From contig JACZKE010000052.1 of NCBI GenBank assembly GCA_014860225.1, positions 248,001 to 312,000 of the forward strand: a DNA stretch of 64,000 nt, read 5' to 3'. The position numbers were made by a program, and so were the translations under genes. The DNA comes from Desulfuromonadales bacterium. Lineage in GTDB: Bacteria; Desulfobacterota; Desulfuromonadia; Desulfuromonadales; BM103. Below the pieces are notes generated by a model. It ran no database searches and had not been told where the DNA came from. It saw only the letters and a program-made list of their open reading frames with translations. Shown one piece after another: positions 3,490-26,760 of the stretch (within the stretch, counting starts at the first letter, position 1; the number at the start of each line of letters is the position of its first letter).

Positions 3490-4947
3490 TCAACGGGATA
3501 TGGAGTCGAGCCGGTAGTGGTCGCGGATAATGCGCAAAAATTGGTTGACGCCCCGCAATGCTTCGCGCAAACGTTTTTGTGATTTTTCGGGGAGGCGCAG
3601 TGGATCGATAGCATTGCTTGGTTTGTTACCTGCGGCCAGGTCACTTAATTGGCGTTGCAGACGAAGCTTGACCAGTTGCGAGAAGGAATCACTGAGTGTT
3701 TCGCTGACCTTGGTCGAAAGAACGCCCATTTGTCCCAGCTTTTCAAGTTTGTCCCAGGTTGTCCCTTTGTCGACATTGTTCTCCAGTGCGAGCAGGCTGG
3801 CTCCCTCTGTTATGGCAAAGATGCCGGCCTTTTTGAGTTCAACCTTGCCTCGATTTTTCCCCCTGCGTTCAACCTTGATGCGGCCAAACATACCCAGCGG
3901 TGCAGGGAAGCGGACAATGTTTTTGGCGGCATAGGGGAAGAAAAGCATGTTTCTCCGGGTGGCTGCATAAATAAATTCATGCAGGTTGTTTTCCAGAGAG
4001 ACATCTCCATGAATGGTGCGGAAATCCTGGAACATGCCGAAGTTGACCATGCGCTCTCCAGTCGGCACGGAGATCCACTGTTCAAGGAGTTGTTGCCATT
4101 CACTGAGGCTGTGCTGCCATTGAGGATTGCTTGCCATGGTGTTGCCGGGGCAGCGGGGAATGCCGACATACTCGAGAGCATCAACCAGTCTGCTCGCGAA
4201 ACGCTGGCAGGCGTCCCGTTCTGCAGTGGAAATGTCATCTGCATAGATCAAGGCGCTGTCCTGGTCGGTACGTAATGTCTGTTCACCGCGTCCCTCGCTG
4301 CCAAGGGCAAGATATGCTGCCCTGGACGGGAGAGTGATCCCCTCCTGGTTCTCCATGATGGTGATGATTCGTTGCGTAAATCCGTCGTTGAAGTGGGCAA
4401 TCAGCTGGACAAGGCTTCTGGTCTCGGCACCAGCGCTCATGGCACTTCTCACCATCTCAAGAATGCGACTGTTGATCGCCTTGAGCTCCTCGATCGACTC
4501 GGCTGCTTCCATCTCTTGTGTCAGGTAAAGCGGGCTGCGGGTTTGCTGGCTGAGCAGGTCGATGGCATTGATAATTCCAACCAGCTTTTGCTCATCGTTG
4601 ACAACGGGCAGGTGATGAATGTTGTTTTTAGCCATTTTAAAGATGGCCTCGAAAACATACGCCTGACTGCGAACCGTTGTTACCCCGGCATGCATGATAT
4701 CGCAGACTTTGTAGCCCGCCAGATTTTCACCGGCAGTAGCAATCAGGTCGCGCAAGTCACGCACAGAAAGGATGCCGATTGGTTTTTCCCCCTCAACAAT
4801 CACGAGTCCGGCAATGTTGTGCTCACGCATCAGGCGAGCGGCTTCAATCACGCTGATATGCGGAGTGCAGGTGAGCGCGGGGCTGCGGCAGACGCTGCCG
4901 ATGTGCAGGAAAAAAAAACTTTCCTCGCTAAAGTTGCTGTCAGGCAC
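3490..4947 (-). CDS. CBS-pair, DUF294 nucleotidyltransferase-like protein
   Basis: 485 residues. Two CBS motifs (about 20-140) form an adenosyl-ligand sensing module. They are followed by a DUF294 nucleotidyltransferase-like domain with GSEGRGEQTLRTDQDSAL, the GlnD-type signature including the Asp pair, and a DUF294_C helical domain (about 340-480). Relatives often sit beside acetate/solute symporters, as here, where the DUF4212-symporter pair is divergently placed 590 bp away; a role in controlling that transporter by nucleotide sensing or protein nucleotidylation is inferred. The start is GTG at 4947, with GGAG five bases upstream. It is soluble, with no membrane segment. The reaction and target are unproven. 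Confidence 0.85.
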   Translation of the reverse strand: MPDSNFSEESFFFLHIGSVCRSPALTCTPHISVIEAARLMREHNIAGLVIVEGEKPIGILSVRDLRDLIATAGENLAGYKVCDIMHAGVTTVRSQAYVFEAIFKMAKNNIHHLPVVNDEQKLVGIINAIDLLSQQTRSPLYLTQEMEAAESIEELKAINSRILEMVRSAMSAGAETRSLVQLIAHFNDGFTQRIITIMENQEGITLPSRAAYLALGSEGRGEQTLRTDQDSALIYADDISTAERDACQRFASRLVDALEYVGIPRCPGNTMASNPQWQHSLSEWQQLLEQWISVPTGERMVNFGMFQDFRTIHGDVSLENNLHEFIYAATRRNMLFFPYAAKNIVRFPAPLGMFGRIKVERRGKNRGKVELKKAGIFAITEGASLLALENNVDKGTTWDKLEKLGQMGVLSTKVSETLSDSFSQLVKLRLQRQLSDLAAGNKPSNAIDPLRLPEKSQKRLREALRGVNQFLRIIRDHYRLDSISR

Positions 4948-5199
4948 GTGAGCTCCATGAAAATACGATAATAAATTGGCTTATTGTCTACGCTTTTAAG
5001 GTCAGATGCAACCGTTCGTTGCCGCTGGTAAATTTAGTAAAACTAGATGAATGAAAAGCAAAACGGCACATCTGCTACCAAACATGTGTTTTGCTGCTAT
5101 ACTTGTTACAAAGATAAATCGTGAACCCTGGAAACAACGATTTTTACAAAGACCTTGATAGGTATAATCGTCAAAACGAAACAACGTTATATTTTTTTA

Positions 5200-5229
5200 T
5201 TGACTCGGCCGGAAGACTCAAGCTATCTT
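5200..5229 (+). promoter_or_regulatory. Candidate promoter of the DUF4212-symporter operon
   Basis: TTGACT, an 18-nt spacer, then TATCTT. It lies about 310 nt before the first ATG, so transcription from here would give a long structured leader. No better promoter is seen nearer the gene. Confidence 0.4.
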
Positions 5230-5386
5230 CTGCTTCAACCTCTATATCTTTGAGGTTTCTAACGGCCTCAGGAAGAGAACAATGGTTAAATTCTGAGTGA
5301 TTTGGTCTTTAAAACGTCTGGTCTGGCCAGTTTTGGGGTTTGATTCCAGGCACACATATCAAACGAAGTAACGGTGAATTTAAAAC

Positions 5387-5524
5387 TTTGTCTCCTTAGC
5401 TGCCCGCCTAGCAGCAAAGAGACCAAAACGGCATCGGAGTTATCCTCAATATCTTCCGGGCAAGGTTAAGGAGGTGGTTAGAAAGTTCAAGTCTGGCAAT
5501 GATGCATAGTTTTTTTATCTAACC
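5387..5524 (+). promoter_or_regulatory. Structured 5' leader of the symporter operon
   Basis: Two possible hairpins. In the first, TTTGTCTC (5387-5394) pairs with GAGACCAAA (5419-5427), enclosing GCTGC/GCAGC. In the second, GGTTAGA (5476-5482) pairs with TCTAACC (5518-5524), ending three bases before the SD AAGGAGG. No known riboswitch class is recognised. Confidence 0.35.
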
Positions 5525-5538
5525 TGAAGGAGGTTATT

Positions 5539-5793
5539 ATGGACAAAAGTGGTAAAGCTTATTGGAAAGCAGTATTAACTCTGGTGGCCCAGGTCCTCTT
5601 GGTCTGGTTCCTTGTCTCTTATGGCGCGGGGATCATTTTCGCCGGCCCGCTCAACAACATCATGCTGGGTGGCTATCCGCTGGGCTTCTGGTTCGCGCAT
5701 CAGGGTTCGATGTACATCTTCGTCGCCCTGATCTTTATCTATGCGTGGCGCATGGGCAAAATCGACCAAAAATTTGACGTTCACGAAGAGTGA
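5539..5793 (+). CDS. DUF4212 small subunit of Na+/solute symporter
   Basis: 84 residues with two transmembrane helices (about 10-32 and 50-70) separated by a loop with GGYPLGFWFAHQGS, and a short charged cytoplasmic tail. This is the DUF4212 family, always encoded directly before an SSS-family symporter and thought to be its accessory subunit in the inner membrane. SD AAGGAGG is six bases before the ATG. The next gene starts 14 bases after the stop, so the two are co-transcribed. The role as obligate partner is known only from gene pairing. Confidence 0.92.
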   Translation: MDKSGKAYWKAVLTLVAQVLLVWFLVSYGAGIIFAGPLNNIMLGGYPLGFWFAHQGSMYIFVALIFIYAWRMGKIDQKFDVHEE

Positions 5794-5807
5794 GGAGGAG
5801 CTAAATA

Positions 5808-7613
5808 ATGAGTCTTCAAGCAATTACCTATCTCGTTGTTGGTGCTACCTTTGCTCTCTACATCGGTATCGCCATCTGGGCCCGTGCGGGCAGCACCAGT
5901 GAATTCTACGTCGCCGGTGGCGGAGTTCACCCCATTGTAAACGGTATGGCGACTGGGGCTGACTGGATGTCCGCAGCGTCCTTCATCTCCATGGCTGGCC
6001 TGATCTCCAACATGGGCTATGGTGGCGGTCTTTTCCTGATGGGCTGGACCGGCGGCTACGTTCTGCTGGCCATGCTGCTGGCACCCTACCTGCGCAAGTT
6101 TGGCAAGTTCACCGTGCCGCAGTTCGTCGGTGACCGCTTCTATTCCAAGGGCGCCAGTGCGGTGGCGGTTCTCTGCCTGATCACCGCATCGGTTACCTAC
6201 ATCATCGGTCAGATGACCGGGGTCGGCGTTGCTTTCTCACGCTTCCTCGGTGTTTCCAATACCACCGGTATTTTCGTCGGTATGGCCATCGTCTTCATGT
6301 ATGCGGTGTTCGGCGGCATGAAGGGGATCACCTACACCCAGGTAGCCCAGTACTGCGTGCTGATCCTGGCCTACACTATCCCGGCAATCTTCATCTCGCT
6401 GCAGCTGACCGGCAATCCGATCCCGCAGCTCGGACTCGGTTCCGACTTGGTCGGCGGCGATGTCTCACTGCTCTCCAAGCTGGACGTGATCGTCCAGGAA
6501 CTCGGTTTCAGTAAGTACACCACGGCTCTGCCTGGCAGCAAACTCAACTATTTTGTTTACACCGTGTCGCTGATGATCGGCACTGCCGGTCTGCCGCACG
6601 TTATCGTGCGTTTCTTCACAGTACCCAAGGTCAAGGACGCGCGTGCCTCTGCCGGCTGGGCGCTGGTTTTCATCGCCATCCTCTACACCACCGCCCCGGC
6701 GGTTGCCGCGATGGCGAAGATAAACCTGTTCAGAACACTTAACCCGGGCCTCGTAAGCTCCGCCAATTACGATGTAACCGCTCCGGACGCGCAAATCAGT
6801 TATGACGAACGTCCCGACTGGATGAAGCGCTGGGAAGTCACCGGCCTGTTGAAATTTGAAGACAAGAACGGCGACGGCCGCATTCAGTACTACAACGACA
6901 AGAGCAAGGATCCCAAATTCGCTGCCGCGGGCTGGGCCGGCAACGAACTGACTGTTAATGCCGATATTATCGTTCTCGCTAACCCGGAAATCGCACTGCT
7001 GCCCAACTGGGTTATTGCTCTGGTGGCCGCAGGTGGCCTGGCAGCCGCTCTCTCCACCGCGGCAGGTCTGTTGCTGGCGATCTCTTCGGCGATCTCCCAT
7101 GACCTTATGAAAAACATCTTTGCGCCCGACATGAGTGAGAAGGGCGAACTGATGGCCGGCAAGATCGCCATGGCCTGTTCAATCGTGGTCGCCGGTTATC
7201 TCGGCCTCAACCCGCCCGGTTTCGCCGCCGGAACCGTGGCCCTGGCTTTCGGTATTGCTGCAAGTTCCATCTTCCCGGCCCTGATGATGGGCATCTTCAA
7301 CAAGAAGATGAACAAGGAAGGTGCCATTGCAGGTATGCTCTCCGGCCTATTTGTCACGCTGTTCTACGTTTTCGCCCACAAGGGCCTGTTCTTCATCAAG
7401 GGGACTGATTATCTCGGTCTGATCGGTGGAGCCAACTCGTTCTTCGGTATCACTCCGGAAGCCTTCGGTGCCATCGGCGCCCTGGTGAACTTCGCAGTGG
7501 CCTACGTAGTGAGCAAGATCACCCCGGAATGCCCCGAGCATATCCAACACCTGGTGGAAAACGTGCGTATCCCGCGCGGTGCCAAGGCTGTGGACGGTTC
7601 CCACGCTCACTAA
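5808..7613 (+). CDS. actP: Na+/solute symporter (acetate-type, VC_2705 subfamily)
   Basis: 601 residues with about 13 transmembrane helices, a member of the sodium:solute symporter family. It probably imports acetate or a related short carboxylate, fitting an acetate-oxidising organism; the symbol is by analogy with ActP. The early helices contain GADWMSAASFISMAG, the conserved Na+-site region. A periplasmic or cytoplasmic loop near residues 330-375 carries DKNGDGRIQYYN (352-363), which fits an EF-hand calcium loop and is an insert relative to E. coli ActP. SD GAGGAG precedes the ATG; the DUF4212 subunit lies immediately upstream and two terminator hairpins follow. Substrate is inferred, not shown. 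Confidence 0.88.
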   Translation: MSLQAITYLVVGATFALYIGIAIWARAGSTSEFYVAGGGVHPIVNGMATGADWMSAASFISMAGLISNMGYGGGLFLMGWTGGYVLLAMLLAPYLRKFGKFTVPQFVGDRFYSKGASAVAVLCLITASVTYIIGQMTGVGVAFSRFLGVSNTTGIFVGMAIVFMYAVFGGMKGITYTQVAQYCVLILAYTIPAIFISLQLTGNPIPQLGLGSDLVGGDVSLLSKLDVIVQELGFSKYTTALPGSKLNYFVYTVSLMIGTAGLPHVIVRFFTVPKVKDARASAGWALVFIAILYTTAPAVAAMAKINLFRTLNPGLVSSANYDVTAPDAQISYDERPDWMKRWEVTGLLKFEDKNGDGRIQYYNDKSKDPKFAAAGWAGNELTVNADIIVLANPEIALLPNWVIALVAAGGLAAALSTAAGLLLAISSAISHDLMKNIFAPDMSEKGELMAGKIAMACSIVVAGYLGLNPPGFAAGTVALAFGIAASSIFPALMMGIFNKKMNKEGAIAGMLSGLFVTLFYVFAHKGLFFIKGTDYLGLIGGANSFFGITPEAFGAIGALVNFAVAYVVSKITPECPEHIQHLVENVRIPRGAKAVDGSHAH

Positions 7614-7627
7614 TCTTTAATCAAATG

Positions 7628-7686
7628 CTGATCAGGGTTATGCCTGATCACCTGACCCCGCCAGCCAGTCTGGCGGGGTTTTTTTA
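7628..7686 (+). terminator. Double hairpin terminator of the symporter operon
   Basis: A first perfect stem TGATCAGG/CCTGATCA (7628-7649) is followed by ACCCCGCCA/TGGCGGGGT (7655-7680) and a run of seven T. Confidence 0.85.
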
Positions 7687-7799
7687 CAAGTTTATATTGC
7701 CTGGTCACGCTTCATCAGGTACAAGGTATTTCAGCTTTACCTGGTTTCCGGCTGTAAACTGTTTATCGCCCTGTCACCGCAGGGCACCGGGAGTTTTGC

Positions 7800-8168
7800 A
7801 TGGTTTTTGACATAAGTATTGCTATCACCTGGATCTTGTTCATCGCTCTTTTTCCCATGGCCTTTATCTGGCTGCGTCGGGCATGGCGAATCTTCGTCAA
7901 ACGTGATTACTCCGAAGTCGCCCTGAAGCGAGGCGAGGGCCCAGCCAACCCTGGGAAATGGGCTCCTGCCACCGGTATCATTAACCTGGCAGCGGGAACT
8001 ACCGCGCTTGTGACCATTGTCGGTGTTCTGCTCGCATTGTTTCCATACAAGACCTGGAGCGCCATAGCCGGCATGACGCTCTGGATGAAAATTTTTGCTG
8101 ATTTTATTGTGAGCCGTCAGGCTCATTCATTTGAACTTGGCAGAAAGAAAGATAAAGAGAAGGAGTGA
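7800..8168 (+). CDS. Small membrane protein of unknown function
   Basis: 122 residues with hydrophobic segments at about 5-25, 62-84 and 90-108, separated by a charged loop (RRAWRIFVKRDYSEVALKRG) and ending in a lysine/glutamate-rich tail. I do not recognise the family. The ATG at 7800 has GGGAG seven bases upstream. The stop at 8168 is two bases before the glyoxalase ATG, so the two genes are translationally coupled and share a terminator. Confidence 0.7.
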   Translation: MVFDISIAITWILFIALFPMAFIWLRRAWRIFVKRDYSEVALKRGEGPANPGKWAPATGIINLAAGTTALVTIVGVLLALFPYKTWSAIAGMTLWMKIFADFIVSRQAHSFELGRKKDKEKE

Positions 8169-23507: not shown

Positions 23508-24500
23508 TTATGATTGTTTTCTGCAGCCTGCTGGCCATTTGTTGACCCTCACCGCATCTATCTGGTGCGTGGTGTCCAGACGCAGAACCAGATTTGCCCG
23601 TTCGGGCATTTCAGCAAGGATATGACGGGTCAGTCGCTCATAATGCATGATAAAGCGATGCAGTGCTGCCTCGTCCATAAGTTTTGAGGATCGGGTCCGC
23701 TGCGACTGCGCCGCCAGCTTTTTCTCCTGCAAGCCGCGCCAGGAAAATACGCACTCCATGTCGGGAATCGCCAGCATGATCAGCAGATCGAGCTCAGCAA
23801 ACAGGCGGCTATAGTCACCGGCAAGCTGTGCATTGACATGCCTCCGCCATATGCCTTGAGGGTCTTCGTCCTTTTCAAGGGTGTTAACCGGTTCCTGCAG
23901 GGCTTCGGGGGCTTGCGGGCGCGCTCCGACACACCAGCCTTCGAAGAGAACAATGTCGATCGGCGTTTCTACAACCCGCCATGCGGATCGGGGAGAACGA
24001 TCATCCCGGGCTTTGTCGAAAACCGGTATAATGACCTGTCGGCCAGCGTCAGCAGCAGACAATTCTGTCAGCAGGTGTAATCCCGTCTCGACGTCATGAG
24101 TCCCCGGTACGCCGCGGGTCGTAAAAAGTGGATGCAGGCTACGGCCAAGCATGCTGCGTTCGGCATGGGTCTTATAGAGATCATCAATGGACAAGCTGGC
24201 AACATGCAAACCGAAACCGCTCTCCAGAAGCACGGACAGAATGCTGCAGAGGGTGGTTTTCCCTGAGCCCTGGGCACCGTTTAGGCCGACGACCAGTGTG
24301 CCCGTCTTCGCCTTTGCCGCTTTTGCCAGCGCCGCAGCCAGGGGCAGGTAGATGCTCTGCAAAAGTGTGTCCGTCACAGAATCAATCTGCAGGTTTGCCA
24401 GGACATGCCGAAAAGGTTCTCTGAGCTGTGTGCACAGGATGCTCAACTCTTGATCGGTCAGCCCATGGATCTCACTCGGAAAGGTGCTGCGATAAGCCAT
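23508..24500 (-). CDS. Glycerate-kinase-like P-loop kinase
   Basis: 330 residues of the phosphoribulokinase/uridine kinase-like group that includes plant D-glycerate 3-kinase and yeast Tda10. Walker A GLNGAQGSGKTTL near residue 75, then SIDDLYKTHAER, the substrate block TRGVPGTHDVETG, and VLFEGWCVGARPQ. These are the family signatures. It would make 3-phosphoglycerate from glycerate in the cytoplasm, though the true substrate in bacteria is often unknown. It starts 14 bp after the stop of the sensor-exonuclease gene, so both may be one operon. Confidence 0.8.
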   Translation of the reverse strand: MAYRSTFPSEIHGLTDQELSILCTQLREPFRHVLANLQIDSVTDTLLQSIYLPLAAALAKAAKAKTGTLVVGLNGAQGSGKTTLCSILSVLLESGFGLHVASLSIDDLYKTHAERSMLGRSLHPLFTTRGVPGTHDVETGLHLLTELSAADAGRQVIIPVFDKARDDRSPRSAWRVVETPIDIVLFEGWCVGARPQAPEALQEPVNTLEKDEDPQGIWRRHVNAQLAGDYSRLFAELDLLIMLAIPDMECVFSWRGLQEKKLAAQSQRTRSSKLMDEAALHRFIMHYERLTRHILAEMPERANLVLRLDTTHQIDAVRVNKWPAGCRKQS

Positions 24501-24514
24501 GGCTCAGGTCTCGC

Positions 24515-26686
24515 TCAGTACTTGATTTTTACATAGGATGATTTGATCGATGCACGCAGAGCCTCTTCAAGGGTGTGAATCCCCTGGGCTTCCAGCAGCG
24601 GGATGAGTCTCAATAAGATCTCGGCGGTGACCAGTGCATCTCCCAGAGCAGTGTGCCGGCCGACGATGGTGATATTGAAGCGCTCGGCAATCGCATCCAG
24701 CGAATGCCCTTCCTGATTTGGATGGACCACGGATGATAGGAGCAGGGTGTCGAGTACCGGGTTGTCGAAAGAGACTCCCGAGGCCTGCTCTTTAAGTTGC
24801 AGGAAACGCATATCGAAGGCCGCATTGTGGGCAACCAGCACGGAATCGACGGCAAAGGCATGAAAGACTGGTAAAACCCGGGTAATAACGGGTTGTGATG
24901 GCAGCAGCTCCGGGTCGATGCCGTGAATTGCTACCGATGATTTTGGTACTGGCCGCTGCGGATTGACCAGCTGATCAAAGCATTCATTGTGCAGCAGGCG
25001 GCCGTTGACGATGCGAACCGCACCGAGTTGAACGATTTCGTCTCCCTCGGAGGGATTCAGCCCGGTTGTCTCAGTGTCGAAGGCCACGTAGGTCAGCTTG
25101 CGCAGCGATATCTTGCCAAGAGTGTCTTGTCCTGGCTGGTGGAAGAGATCGAATTCATAGGAGACTGGACGAGGCGCAACCGGGGAATGCAATTGAGCCG
25201 TTTCCTCGTCAAGGGCCTTCGGCAAGGTCACGCTGATGCCATTGCAGAAGATCTCGTCAGCCTGCGCAATGGTAATGTCGCCGCCATGTGCGTTGACAAT
25301 GGTATCGGGGGAGTCTGAAGTGCCGTCGCTGTCCATGAAGAGTGGGGCGGTCTGCCAGTCGTCTCGGATGGCCTGACCGGGTACGGCTTGATCTGACCAC
25401 TTAATTGTGAGCGTTGCCAGGGACCCGCTGCTGCTATCGATCTGTAATGTTATGGCAGAAATGCCATATTCGGCTTTCAGGAGTCCGGCCAGGGTTGTAA
25501 TTGTCTGTACGATGGCATAGCTGTCCAACTTCAACCAGATAGTTTTATTCACATGCGTTTCAGACTGTACGGCAAAGCGTTCCTCAAGGTTTTTGGCGAT
25601 CAGCATCATGAGGGTGTCAGCCAGCACATTCTCGCGGTTTCCGTAGGCTCGACGATGTTCACTGTAGAGCTTTCTGGCCAGGGCCAGTTGTTCCTCAAGA
25701 TCGTTGGTGACCAGTGAAATCTCCATCCGGTGGAGTTCACAGGCTTTATCTCCTGAATCGGGAAGATTGCAGATAGCATTGATCCCTCTGTGCAGTTTGC
25801 CAAGTGAATTCTGTACAGCATCGACCATGCCCTGCAGTAATCGGTCGCGTTCGTTATCGGCTTCAATTTCACCGGTAATGTCTTCCAGTGAAAGAACGAA
25901 CCCGGAGATAAAGCGCGCGTCCTCTTCATTGCCCGTGACCGGTGCCATATTCACGCGAATAAAACGCGTACCACACAATTTGGTCATCAAGCCAAGCGCC
26001 GGTTTGGCCTGATCCAGGGTGAAGGCATGGTTCATGACTTGCAGAGCGTGTACCAGCGGATCTCTCTCCAGAACCCCGAATATAGATCGGCCCAAACCGA
26101 TGGCGCCGCCACCTTCCTGGTTACCGTCTGCCGGTTGCAGCATCTCCTGTGCCAGGCGGCTATACAGCAGGATTCTGCCATCCTGATTGCAGACCACAAC
26201 GCCGTAGGGAAGTTCCGACATCAGGGCTGCCAGTCGGTTGCGCTCTTCTTTGAGGGCAAGGTTCGACAGGCGGATTTTATTCTCAACTTCGCTTTGCAAC
26301 TCCTGGAAAGCATCCGCAGACTCATTGATAACGTCAGCCAACATGACCAGTTCACGGGCACCCTCGGCGGTGATGCGATAGTCCGGATTTGCGGTGGTTA
26401 TCAGTCGGGTCTGCTCAGCCATACTCAGGACCGGTATTATGTAGTAACGAAACAGCAGGCTGACCATGGTACAGATGAACGCAACCAGTATGATCGATCC
26501 GATAAAAGGGAAGGGGATCAGTCTGTCAAAGAGCTTGTCAAAAACAGCCTGATCTTCGGCTGACAGATTCAGATATGACGCAATAAAGCTGCCGAAAATG
26601 ACTGTAAAGGTAACAGTAATAATCCCGGTCAGAAAAATCCAGTATTTGACTGCAGGTGACAGGCTGTCGCCAAAACGATTCTGCAA
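24515..26686 (-). CDS. Membrane PAS/pseudo-histidine-kinase fused to DnaQ-like 3'-5' exonuclease
   Basis: 723 residues. Two membrane helices (14-39, 59-81), HAMP-like linker (82-135), coiled coil, PAS domain (about 152-275, LPYGVVVCNQDGRILLYS). Residues 276-500 follow the layout of a sensor kinase core, but no phospho-histidine HELRTP block or intact N-box exists; remnants such as VNAHGGDITI and GISVTLPKA mark a decayed ATPase. Residues 532-723 form a DEDDh exonuclease: FDTETTG (Asp537, Glu539), HNAAFD, and HTALGD (His678, Asp683) are all intact. The start is TTG, with AGGAG six bases upstream. Function is unknown; a membrane signal controlling nuclease action on DNA, RNA or a nucleotide is inferred. 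Confidence 0.85.
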   Translation of the reverse strand: MQNRFGDSLSPAVKYWIFLTGIITVTFTVIFGSFIASYLNLSAEDQAVFDKLFDRLIPFPFIGSIILVAFICTMVSLLFRYYIIPVLSMAEQTRLITTANPDYRITAEGARELVMLADVINESADAFQELQSEVENKIRLSNLALKEERNRLAALMSELPYGVVVCNQDGRILLYSRLAQEMLQPADGNQEGGGAIGLGRSIFGVLERDPLVHALQVMNHAFTLDQAKPALGLMTKLCGTRFIRVNMAPVTGNEEDARFISGFVLSLEDITGEIEADNERDRLLQGMVDAVQNSLGKLHRGINAICNLPDSGDKACELHRMEISLVTNDLEEQLALARKLYSEHRRAYGNRENVLADTLMMLIAKNLEERFAVQSETHVNKTIWLKLDSYAIVQTITTLAGLLKAEYGISAITLQIDSSSGSLATLTIKWSDQAVPGQAIRDDWQTAPLFMDSDGTSDSPDTIVNAHGGDITIAQADEIFCNGISVTLPKALDEETAQLHSPVAPRPVSYEFDLFHQPGQDTLGKISLRKLTYVAFDTETTGLNPSEGDEIVQLGAVRIVNGRLLHNECFDQLVNPQRPVPKSSVAIHGIDPELLPSQPVITRVLPVFHAFAVDSVLVAHNAAFDMRFLQLKEQASGVSFDNPVLDTLLLSSVVHPNQEGHSLDAIAERFNITIVGRHTALGDALVTAEILLRLIPLLEAQGIHTLEEALRASIKSSYVKIKY

Positions 26687-26760
26687 AGCTTGCTCCTGTA
26701 TGATGGGAACCTCTTTAACCGCAAGAATCCCAAATGGGGATCAAGAGAATAATATGCGAT

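Follow-up and report, generated by a model that had tools for sequence, protein, structure and literature searches.

RESULTS

A single gene encodes a predicted membrane receptor fused to an exonuclease

The window, the whole 64,000-nucleotide (nt) stretch of Desulfuromonadales DNA analyzed here, carries on its minus strand a single open reading frame of 723 residues (24515 to 26686) with no internal stops. The gene starts with TTG at 26686, and AGGAG at 26697 to 26693, 6 nt upstream of this start, is a good ribosome-binding site. Promoter and terminator scans gave results no better than those for shuffled sequence. The genome holds a single copy.

The protein, all of whose features lie on the minus strand, begins with two hydrophobic stretches (residues 17 to 35 and 61 to 79) that correspond to the two membrane helices recognized in the preliminary description. 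The model helix at the first spans residues 11 to 39 (26570 to 26656), and the second membrane helix covers residues 58 to 80 (26447 to 26515); both helices are found in 77 of 81 family members. The loop between them is too short for a periplasmic sensor domain. Residues 81 to 131 (26294 to 26446) form a HAMP-like signal module. Pfam matches HAMP in only 1 of 68 family members (E ≤ 0.01), but the family alignment conserves G109..E112...L116....N121, a spacing that we take to be a HAMP pattern, and the model places a helix, connector, and helix here (residues 58 to 98 and 111 to 157); both features fit a HAMP module. A PAS domain follows (residues 146 to 270; 25877 to 26251). Its Pfam match in the window protein is weak and under the cut-off, but PAS_4 is matched in 28 and PAS in 25 of the 68 members, and a PAS-like fold is modeled at residues 162 to 269. 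The earlier assignment of HAMP and PAS is thereby borne out. Within the PAS domain, a Cys (residue 166; 26187 to 26191) is invariant in 81 of 81 sequences, as are R200 and S201; together these residues are perhaps a ligand or redox site.

The AlphaFold2 model built from 68 family members (mean pLDDT, 80.6; pTM, 0.66) predicts, in order, two long N-terminal helices, a helix-connector-helix, the PAS-like fold, a hairpin (helices 270 to 306 and 313 to 345), an alpha/beta domain (residues 352 to 490), and an exonuclease (residues 533 to 714). Foldseek matches the receptor part to WalK (486 columns), VicK (430 columns), and LOV-kinases; these are multidomain matches with large rmsd, and we use them for domain order only. 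The domain check by structure prediction that had been proposed thus yields a pseudo-DHp/CA pair at residues 276 to 346 and 350 to 492 and a PolC-like exonuclease at about residues 531 to 714.

The histidine-kinase core lacks kinase residues

Pfam (E ≤ 1) gave no HisKA or HATPase_c match in the window protein. Across 68 family members, HisKA was matched in 2, and HATPase_c was absent among the 17 families listed. A profile of residues 270 to 495 was aligned by hhalign with the DHp and CA domains of transporter-histidine kinases encoded beside related genes (see below), over 218 columns (E = 4.4e-13). This alignment and the model delimit a pseudo-DHp helical hairpin (residues 276 to 346; 25649 to 25861) and an ATPase-like pseudo-CA domain (residues 350 to 492; 25211 to 25639). 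The phospho-His column falls at D289, where the 81 sequences have Glu (41), Asp (28), Ala (5), Gln (3), Arg (2), Asn (1), or Ser (1), and never His. At the column of the second N-box Asn (402), 50 of the 81 have Arg and not one has Asn. Trp (W430) occupies the G1 Asp position in 79 of 81, and no G2 motif was seen among the alignment rows listed. The lack of a phospho-His and an N-box, first noticed in the window protein, therefore extends to the family. A kinase core that would prove complete when better aligned was considered and ruled out, as the 218-column alignment is still without the His, Asn, and Asp.

Against the PDB, the profile of the core matched 5c93 and 4u7n over positions 2 to 210 with 28 bits, the most that any PDB kinase reached, in a search where protein A chimaeras, taken as chance helical matches, outscore kinases. 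The best other match of the core in its own genome reached 27 bits, in the DHp part only. Among the kinases of the related loci, all 41 transporter-kinases scored 23.9 to 42.4 bits and the others 17.8 bits or less, a comparison that rests on only 10 other kinases. Judged from these alignments, residues 270 to 495 are a histidine-kinase fold without kinase residues, that is, a predicted pseudo-kinase. With both the N-box Asn and the G1 Asp lost and no G2 motif among the rows listed, ATP binding by the pseudo-CA domain is unlikely, contrary to the earlier suggestion that the dead kinase may still bind ATP.

The exonuclease domain resembles PolC and epsilon

A conserved linker, RPxxYxFDLF (residues 503 to 516; 25139 to 25180), leads to the DEDDh 3'-5' exonuclease domain (residues 531 to 712; 24551 to 25096). 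RNase_T is matched in the window protein with 120.2 bits against a curated Pfam cut-off of 24 (E = 1.7e-34). The catalytic residues D537, E539, D625, H678, and D683 all align with those of PolC and Escherichia coli epsilon, and each is invariant in 81 of 81 aligned members, a set that was collected with patterns including part of the exonuclease motif and is biased toward intact members. Foldseek superposes the domain on PolC (rmsd, 1.5 over 187 columns) and on epsilon (rmsd, about 2; TM, 0.85 by target length). The domain is thus apparently a working exonuclease, and the initial view of the gene, a membrane sensor pseudo-kinase fused to an intact DEDDh exonuclease, stands.

DEDDh enzymes such as Orn degrade dinucleotides, and the preliminary description raised the idea that the nuclease acts on a nucleotide or second messenger, to which the kinase-like gene 14 bp away was taken to point. 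It named small RNAs as a further conceivable substrate. The neighbor, a P-loop kinase gene (23508 to 24500), and the 14-bp gap are confirmed. We nevertheless find an action on short oligonucleotides or a nucleotide second messenger quite unlikely. The closest solved relatives are the exonucleases of PolC, epsilon, and DinG, with no Orn-like chain among the 10 best structure-database matches listed. In addition, the downstream kinase gene lacks conservation: outside the window, its cluster is represented in a single related locus (L002), which rules it out as a partner, and the partners elsewhere are REC, transporter-kinase, DUF294, ActP, and Acs genes. In four further loci (L003, L004, L005, and L007), the next gene encodes a transporter binding protein; the contig of L006 ends too soon to show one.

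The fusion recurs outside Desulfuromonadales

A scan for relatives found at least 565, of which the best 80 were kept. In all 80 loci the match is carried by an open frame, and in 78 it starts at or before residue 114 (usually 2 to 95) and ends at or beyond residue 706; the matches in L040 and L073 begin at a contig end. The 80 come from Desulfuromonadales/Deltaproteobacteria, beta- and gammaproteobacteria, and a few other taxa. A full receiver cassette also occurs on contigs labeled Chloroflexales and Caldilineaceae in metagenome-assembled genomes (L026 and L047), possibly through misbinning or transfer. A reading of the fusion as a Desulfuromonadales specialty is not supported, since the same full-length protein occurs in beta- and gammaproteobacteria.

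At E ≤ 1e-60, the family profile finds a match in 83 of the 136 genomes available for the window's order, including 52 of the 84 of good quality. Together with the best 80 loci elsewhere, this rules out a frameshift or assembly artefact as the origin of the fusion. Among the 83, only G057 and G120 have split copies, with both pieces on the same contig in G057 and on separate contigs in G120. One copy in a further genome, G287, has an internal TAA; these broken copies were left unrepaired.

In the class of genome G136, the profile matches 14 of 229 sampled genomes, with four candidates scored per genome, and 11 of these matches extend to the exonuclease end. Genomes G193 and G332 keep the receptor with a decayed exonuclease (19 to 21 bits), as seen in loci L129 (4198 to 6246) and L130 (662 to 2737). 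In genome G268 (L131, 5448 to 6059), a 203-residue exonuclease of the same type (203 bits) stands alone; its locus also encodes Acs, an SSF permease, CBS-DUF294, a sigma-54-type response regulator, and a protein resembling the transporter-kinases. The family therefore includes fused, unfused, and decayed forms.

Because L129 and L130 keep the receptor beside a decayed exonuclease, nuclease activity is not always the point. These two gammaproteobacterial relatives, which lack the catalytic motif, suggest a reading in which the exonuclease fold is mainly a regulated binding module and catalysis is secondary. At L129, moreover, a receiver-like gene (29% identity) overlaps the start of the focal-type gene by 7 nt. 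Against it stand the catalytic residues, invariant in 81 of 81 members, although that set is biased toward intact ones; we consider this reading highly improbable.

Related genes outside Desulfuromonadia often lie in loci resembling acetate-sensing clusters

The neighborhood survey proposed earlier was run on the 80 loci, which were sorted from record titles and the match list into 23 Desulfuromonadia-like loci and 57 others. Because simple gene calling did not mark the main gene at several GC-rich loci, neighbors were recounted by tblastn, using as queries six random members per cluster of the same loci plus the window's DUF294 and ActP genes; the counts are of relatives of the query genes, self-matches included. 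The 57 non-Desulfuromonadia loci contain REC in 51, transporter-kinase in 49, DUF294 in 37, ActP in 30, and Acs in 22, and 54 of them have at least one acetate-locus marker besides REC. In 48 of the 57 (54 offer 700 bases of space), the gene immediately upstream, on the same strand, encodes a single-domain receiver, and in 42 the three genes run in the order transporter-histidine kinase, receiver, focal gene. The 23 Desulfuromonadia-like loci contain DUF294 in 2, ActP in 1, Acs in 3, and REC or transporter-kinase in none. The fusion thus recurs, with receiver and transporter-kinase outside Desulfuromonadia, where the gene company resembles an acetate CrbS-type locus.

Of the clustered receivers, all 20 retain the acidic pair, the phosphorylation Asp, and the Lys, and at least 70% retain the Thr position. 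One transporter-kinase matches PDB 10ed_A ("histidine kinase," 606 residues), perhaps CbrA, over residues 7 to 621 (E = 1.7e-81). The transporter-kinase domains are a weak SSF match (E = 0.0038) and full HisKA and HATPase_c matches, and no NCBIfam full-length model exceeded its cut-off among the 25 listed. The matches indicate that the transporter-kinase identity is real. In L013, L015, and L018, a second, stand-alone DEDDh exonuclease lies just downstream of the fused gene and is followed by Acs (acetyl-CoA synthetase).

No receiver or transporter-kinase lies beside the focal gene in the window. The genome's SSF genes (frames of 510, 652, and 602 residues) include no fused transporter-kinase, and its best receiver match has 43% identity; for these reasons we do not claim the receiver step for the window. 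An acetate-type locus is present at 3490 to 8168. It includes a CBS-DUF294 nucleotidyltransferase gene, assigned by homology (3490 to 4947, minus strand), about 19.6 kb from the focal gene, and, divergent from it and about 16.9 kb from the focal gene, one for an ActP-like sodium:solute symporter, likewise assigned by homology (5808 to 7613, plus strand). A small membrane-like open reading frame (7800 to 8168) follows the permease gene. In all, the genome has three CBS-DUF294-type genes and one weak match. The window's DUF294 and ActP genes are only candidate members of one system with the focal gene.

The recurrence of DUF294 raises the possibility of a writer and an eraser tuned to carboxylates, in which CBS-DUF294 would add a nucleotide to a protein or to an RNA 3' end and the DEDDh enzyme would remove it. 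DUF294 is within reach in 37 of the 57 loci. Of 7 genomes checked, 4 encode a DEDDh exonuclease of one type or another no more than about 1.1 kb from a DUF294 domain (twice each in G136, G137, and G139 and once in G140); the spacing is about 5.5 kb in G138, and none is near in G141 or G142. Seven of 25 DUF294 loci of the window's phylum, from other lineages (L104, L105, L106, L108, L113, L114, and L127), have a DEDDh exonuclease within about 1.5 kb, against a background of just 4 nonfocal exonucleases in the 1.21 Mb of the 80 loci, which is not a matched control. In the literature, DUF294 proteins are proposed to act by nucleotidylation (PMC5715377), and another nuclease, RNase Z, is described as a deAMPylase (PMC12663964). 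The same paper, however, reports that the exonuclease RNase T did not deAMPylate the SelO substrates tested (PMC12663964). DUF294 activity is putative here, and the domain is near the focal gene in just 2 of the 23 Desulfuromonadia loci and distant in the window. On balance we regard this reading as unlikely.

Conservation differs between receiver-linked and Desulfuromonadia members

At matched exonuclease divergence, receiver-linked members conserve the pseudo-DHp and pseudo-CA domains more, whereas Desulfuromonadia conserve the membrane helices and HAMP more. For DHp, the first comparison gave 0.435 (receiver-linked) versus 0.276 (Desulfuromonadia), from pairs that are not independent. With representatives only (11 versus 10, or 17 versus 12), the differences in CA, membrane helices, and HAMP hold. 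That in DHp is not significant (the bootstrap 95% ranges, which ignore ancestry, span zero), and a more conserved DHp in receiver-linked members was dropped as a claim. The contrast is suggestive only of two ways of feeding one receptor.

In the family alignment and the matched comparison, the PAS domain and linker are under strong constraint. This bears on a further reading, in which the receptor would be no more than a membrane anchor for a DNA exonuclease that serves repair or replication. The nearest families are indeed DNA exonucleases. Against it count the constraint on PAS and linker and the clustered loci, which hold genes of carbon-source regulation rather than of repair; we consider such a tether very unlikely.

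DISCUSSION

A signal that passes through a dead kinase to control a nuclease, as originally proposed, is still the simplest reading of the architecture, even though ATP binding and the clue from the neighboring gene are not supported. Our preferred reading, held tentatively and at somewhat less than even confidence, is that a dead-kinase receptor reads a receiver or an input through the membrane helices, HAMP, and PAS and switches a membrane-bound exonuclease that trims RNA. The receptor would be a dimer whose two membrane helices, HAMP, and PAS end in the dead kinase core. Having neither phospho-His nor ATP site, this core would receive signals, much as DivL does for DivK~P.

In Caulobacter, DivL, which to our knowledge has no nuclease, likewise combines PAS with a DHp/CA core that has no kinase function, and it too stands next to a single-domain receiver pathway. 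A study of DivL describes a dead kinase that reads a lone receiver, DivK~P, through its docking face (PMC4211667). Here the output is instead a fused exonuclease, and receiver binding is proposed from gene order.

For most relatives outside Desulfuromonadia, the signal would be the single-domain response regulator whose gene lies immediately upstream. This receiver would be phosphorylated by the SLC5-type transporter-histidine kinase of the acetate or short-carboxylate locus and would dock on the dead DHp hairpin, and the resulting change would pass via the RPxxYxFDLF linker to the DEDDh exonuclease. In Desulfuromonadia, including the window, where the receiver/transporter-kinase pair is absent at the locus, the input would come via the membrane helices, HAMP, and PAS. 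The exonuclease would trim 3' ends, most likely of RNA, as a posttranscriptional arm of carboxylate use. Of this scheme, we observe the architecture, its conservation, the missing kinase residues, and the neighboring genes, and infer the enzyme activity, the docking, which way control runs, and the RNA substrate. The fullest version of this pathway runs from an acetate-sensing transporter-kinase through a lone receiver and the dead kinase to a membrane 3'-5' exonuclease, with DUF294 as an opposing nucleotide adder; as a complete chain it is doubtful.

The nearest known locus type is that of CrbS/CrbR (MxtR/ErdR), which shares a transporter-histidine kinase, ActP, Acs, DUF294, and a DEDDh-type nuclease. 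According to two reports, CrbS carries a REC domain at its own C terminus and CrbR is a LuxR-type regulator that binds DNA (PMC5715377, PMC9100948), whereas here a single-domain receiver is encoded on its own and the receptor carries the nuclease. The CrbS/R-type locus has a separate exonuclease, unlike the fused gene. The nearest studied Pseudomonas case, also a separate gene, is Pseudomonas putida pp_0353, likened to ours from its published description rather than by sequence (PMC9927547). There, the gene encodes a putative exonuclease, shares an operon with a CBS-domain protein gene, and is controlled by MxtR/ErdR; the deletion mutant is slow to grow on pyruvate although not on acetate, and the authors speculate on mRNA decay (PMC9927547). 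The pp_0353 and pp_0354 deletions are reported there to have no acetate phenotype, which counts against an acetate-linked model (PMC9927547). In Pseudomonas aeruginosa, the PA3232-PA3235 cluster, together with ActP, is reported to increase on propionate (PMC9765439).

The PolC and DnaQ epsilon exonucleases share the fold and all five catalytic residues, but the enzyme here is fused behind a membrane receptor and is not a polymerase part. Ire1 and RNase L join sensor, (pseudo)kinase, and nuclease in one chain. They do so with a eukaryotic protein-kinase fold and an endonuclease, in contrast to the histidine-kinase fold and DEDDh exonuclease of the present protein, and we claim no homology. The parts of this protein are already known; our searches of open-access literature yielded no paper on a pseudo-kinase/exonuclease fusion and no description of this combination or of its setting within a carboxylate-sensing locus.

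Our reading would give a testable role to the DUF294-exonuclease pair that recurs beside acetate genes, and whose deletion phenotypes in P. putida are unexplained (PMC9927547). If the fullest version of the pathway is true, it would be a bacterial counterpart of Ire1 and RNase L, assembled from two-component parts. The usual end point of a two-component system is a transcription factor or a second-messenger enzyme; here carbon-source sensing would gain a posttranscriptional output without a transcription factor. A widespread nuclease-ended receptor of this kind would show how a nutrient signal could act directly on RNA or nucleotidylated targets.
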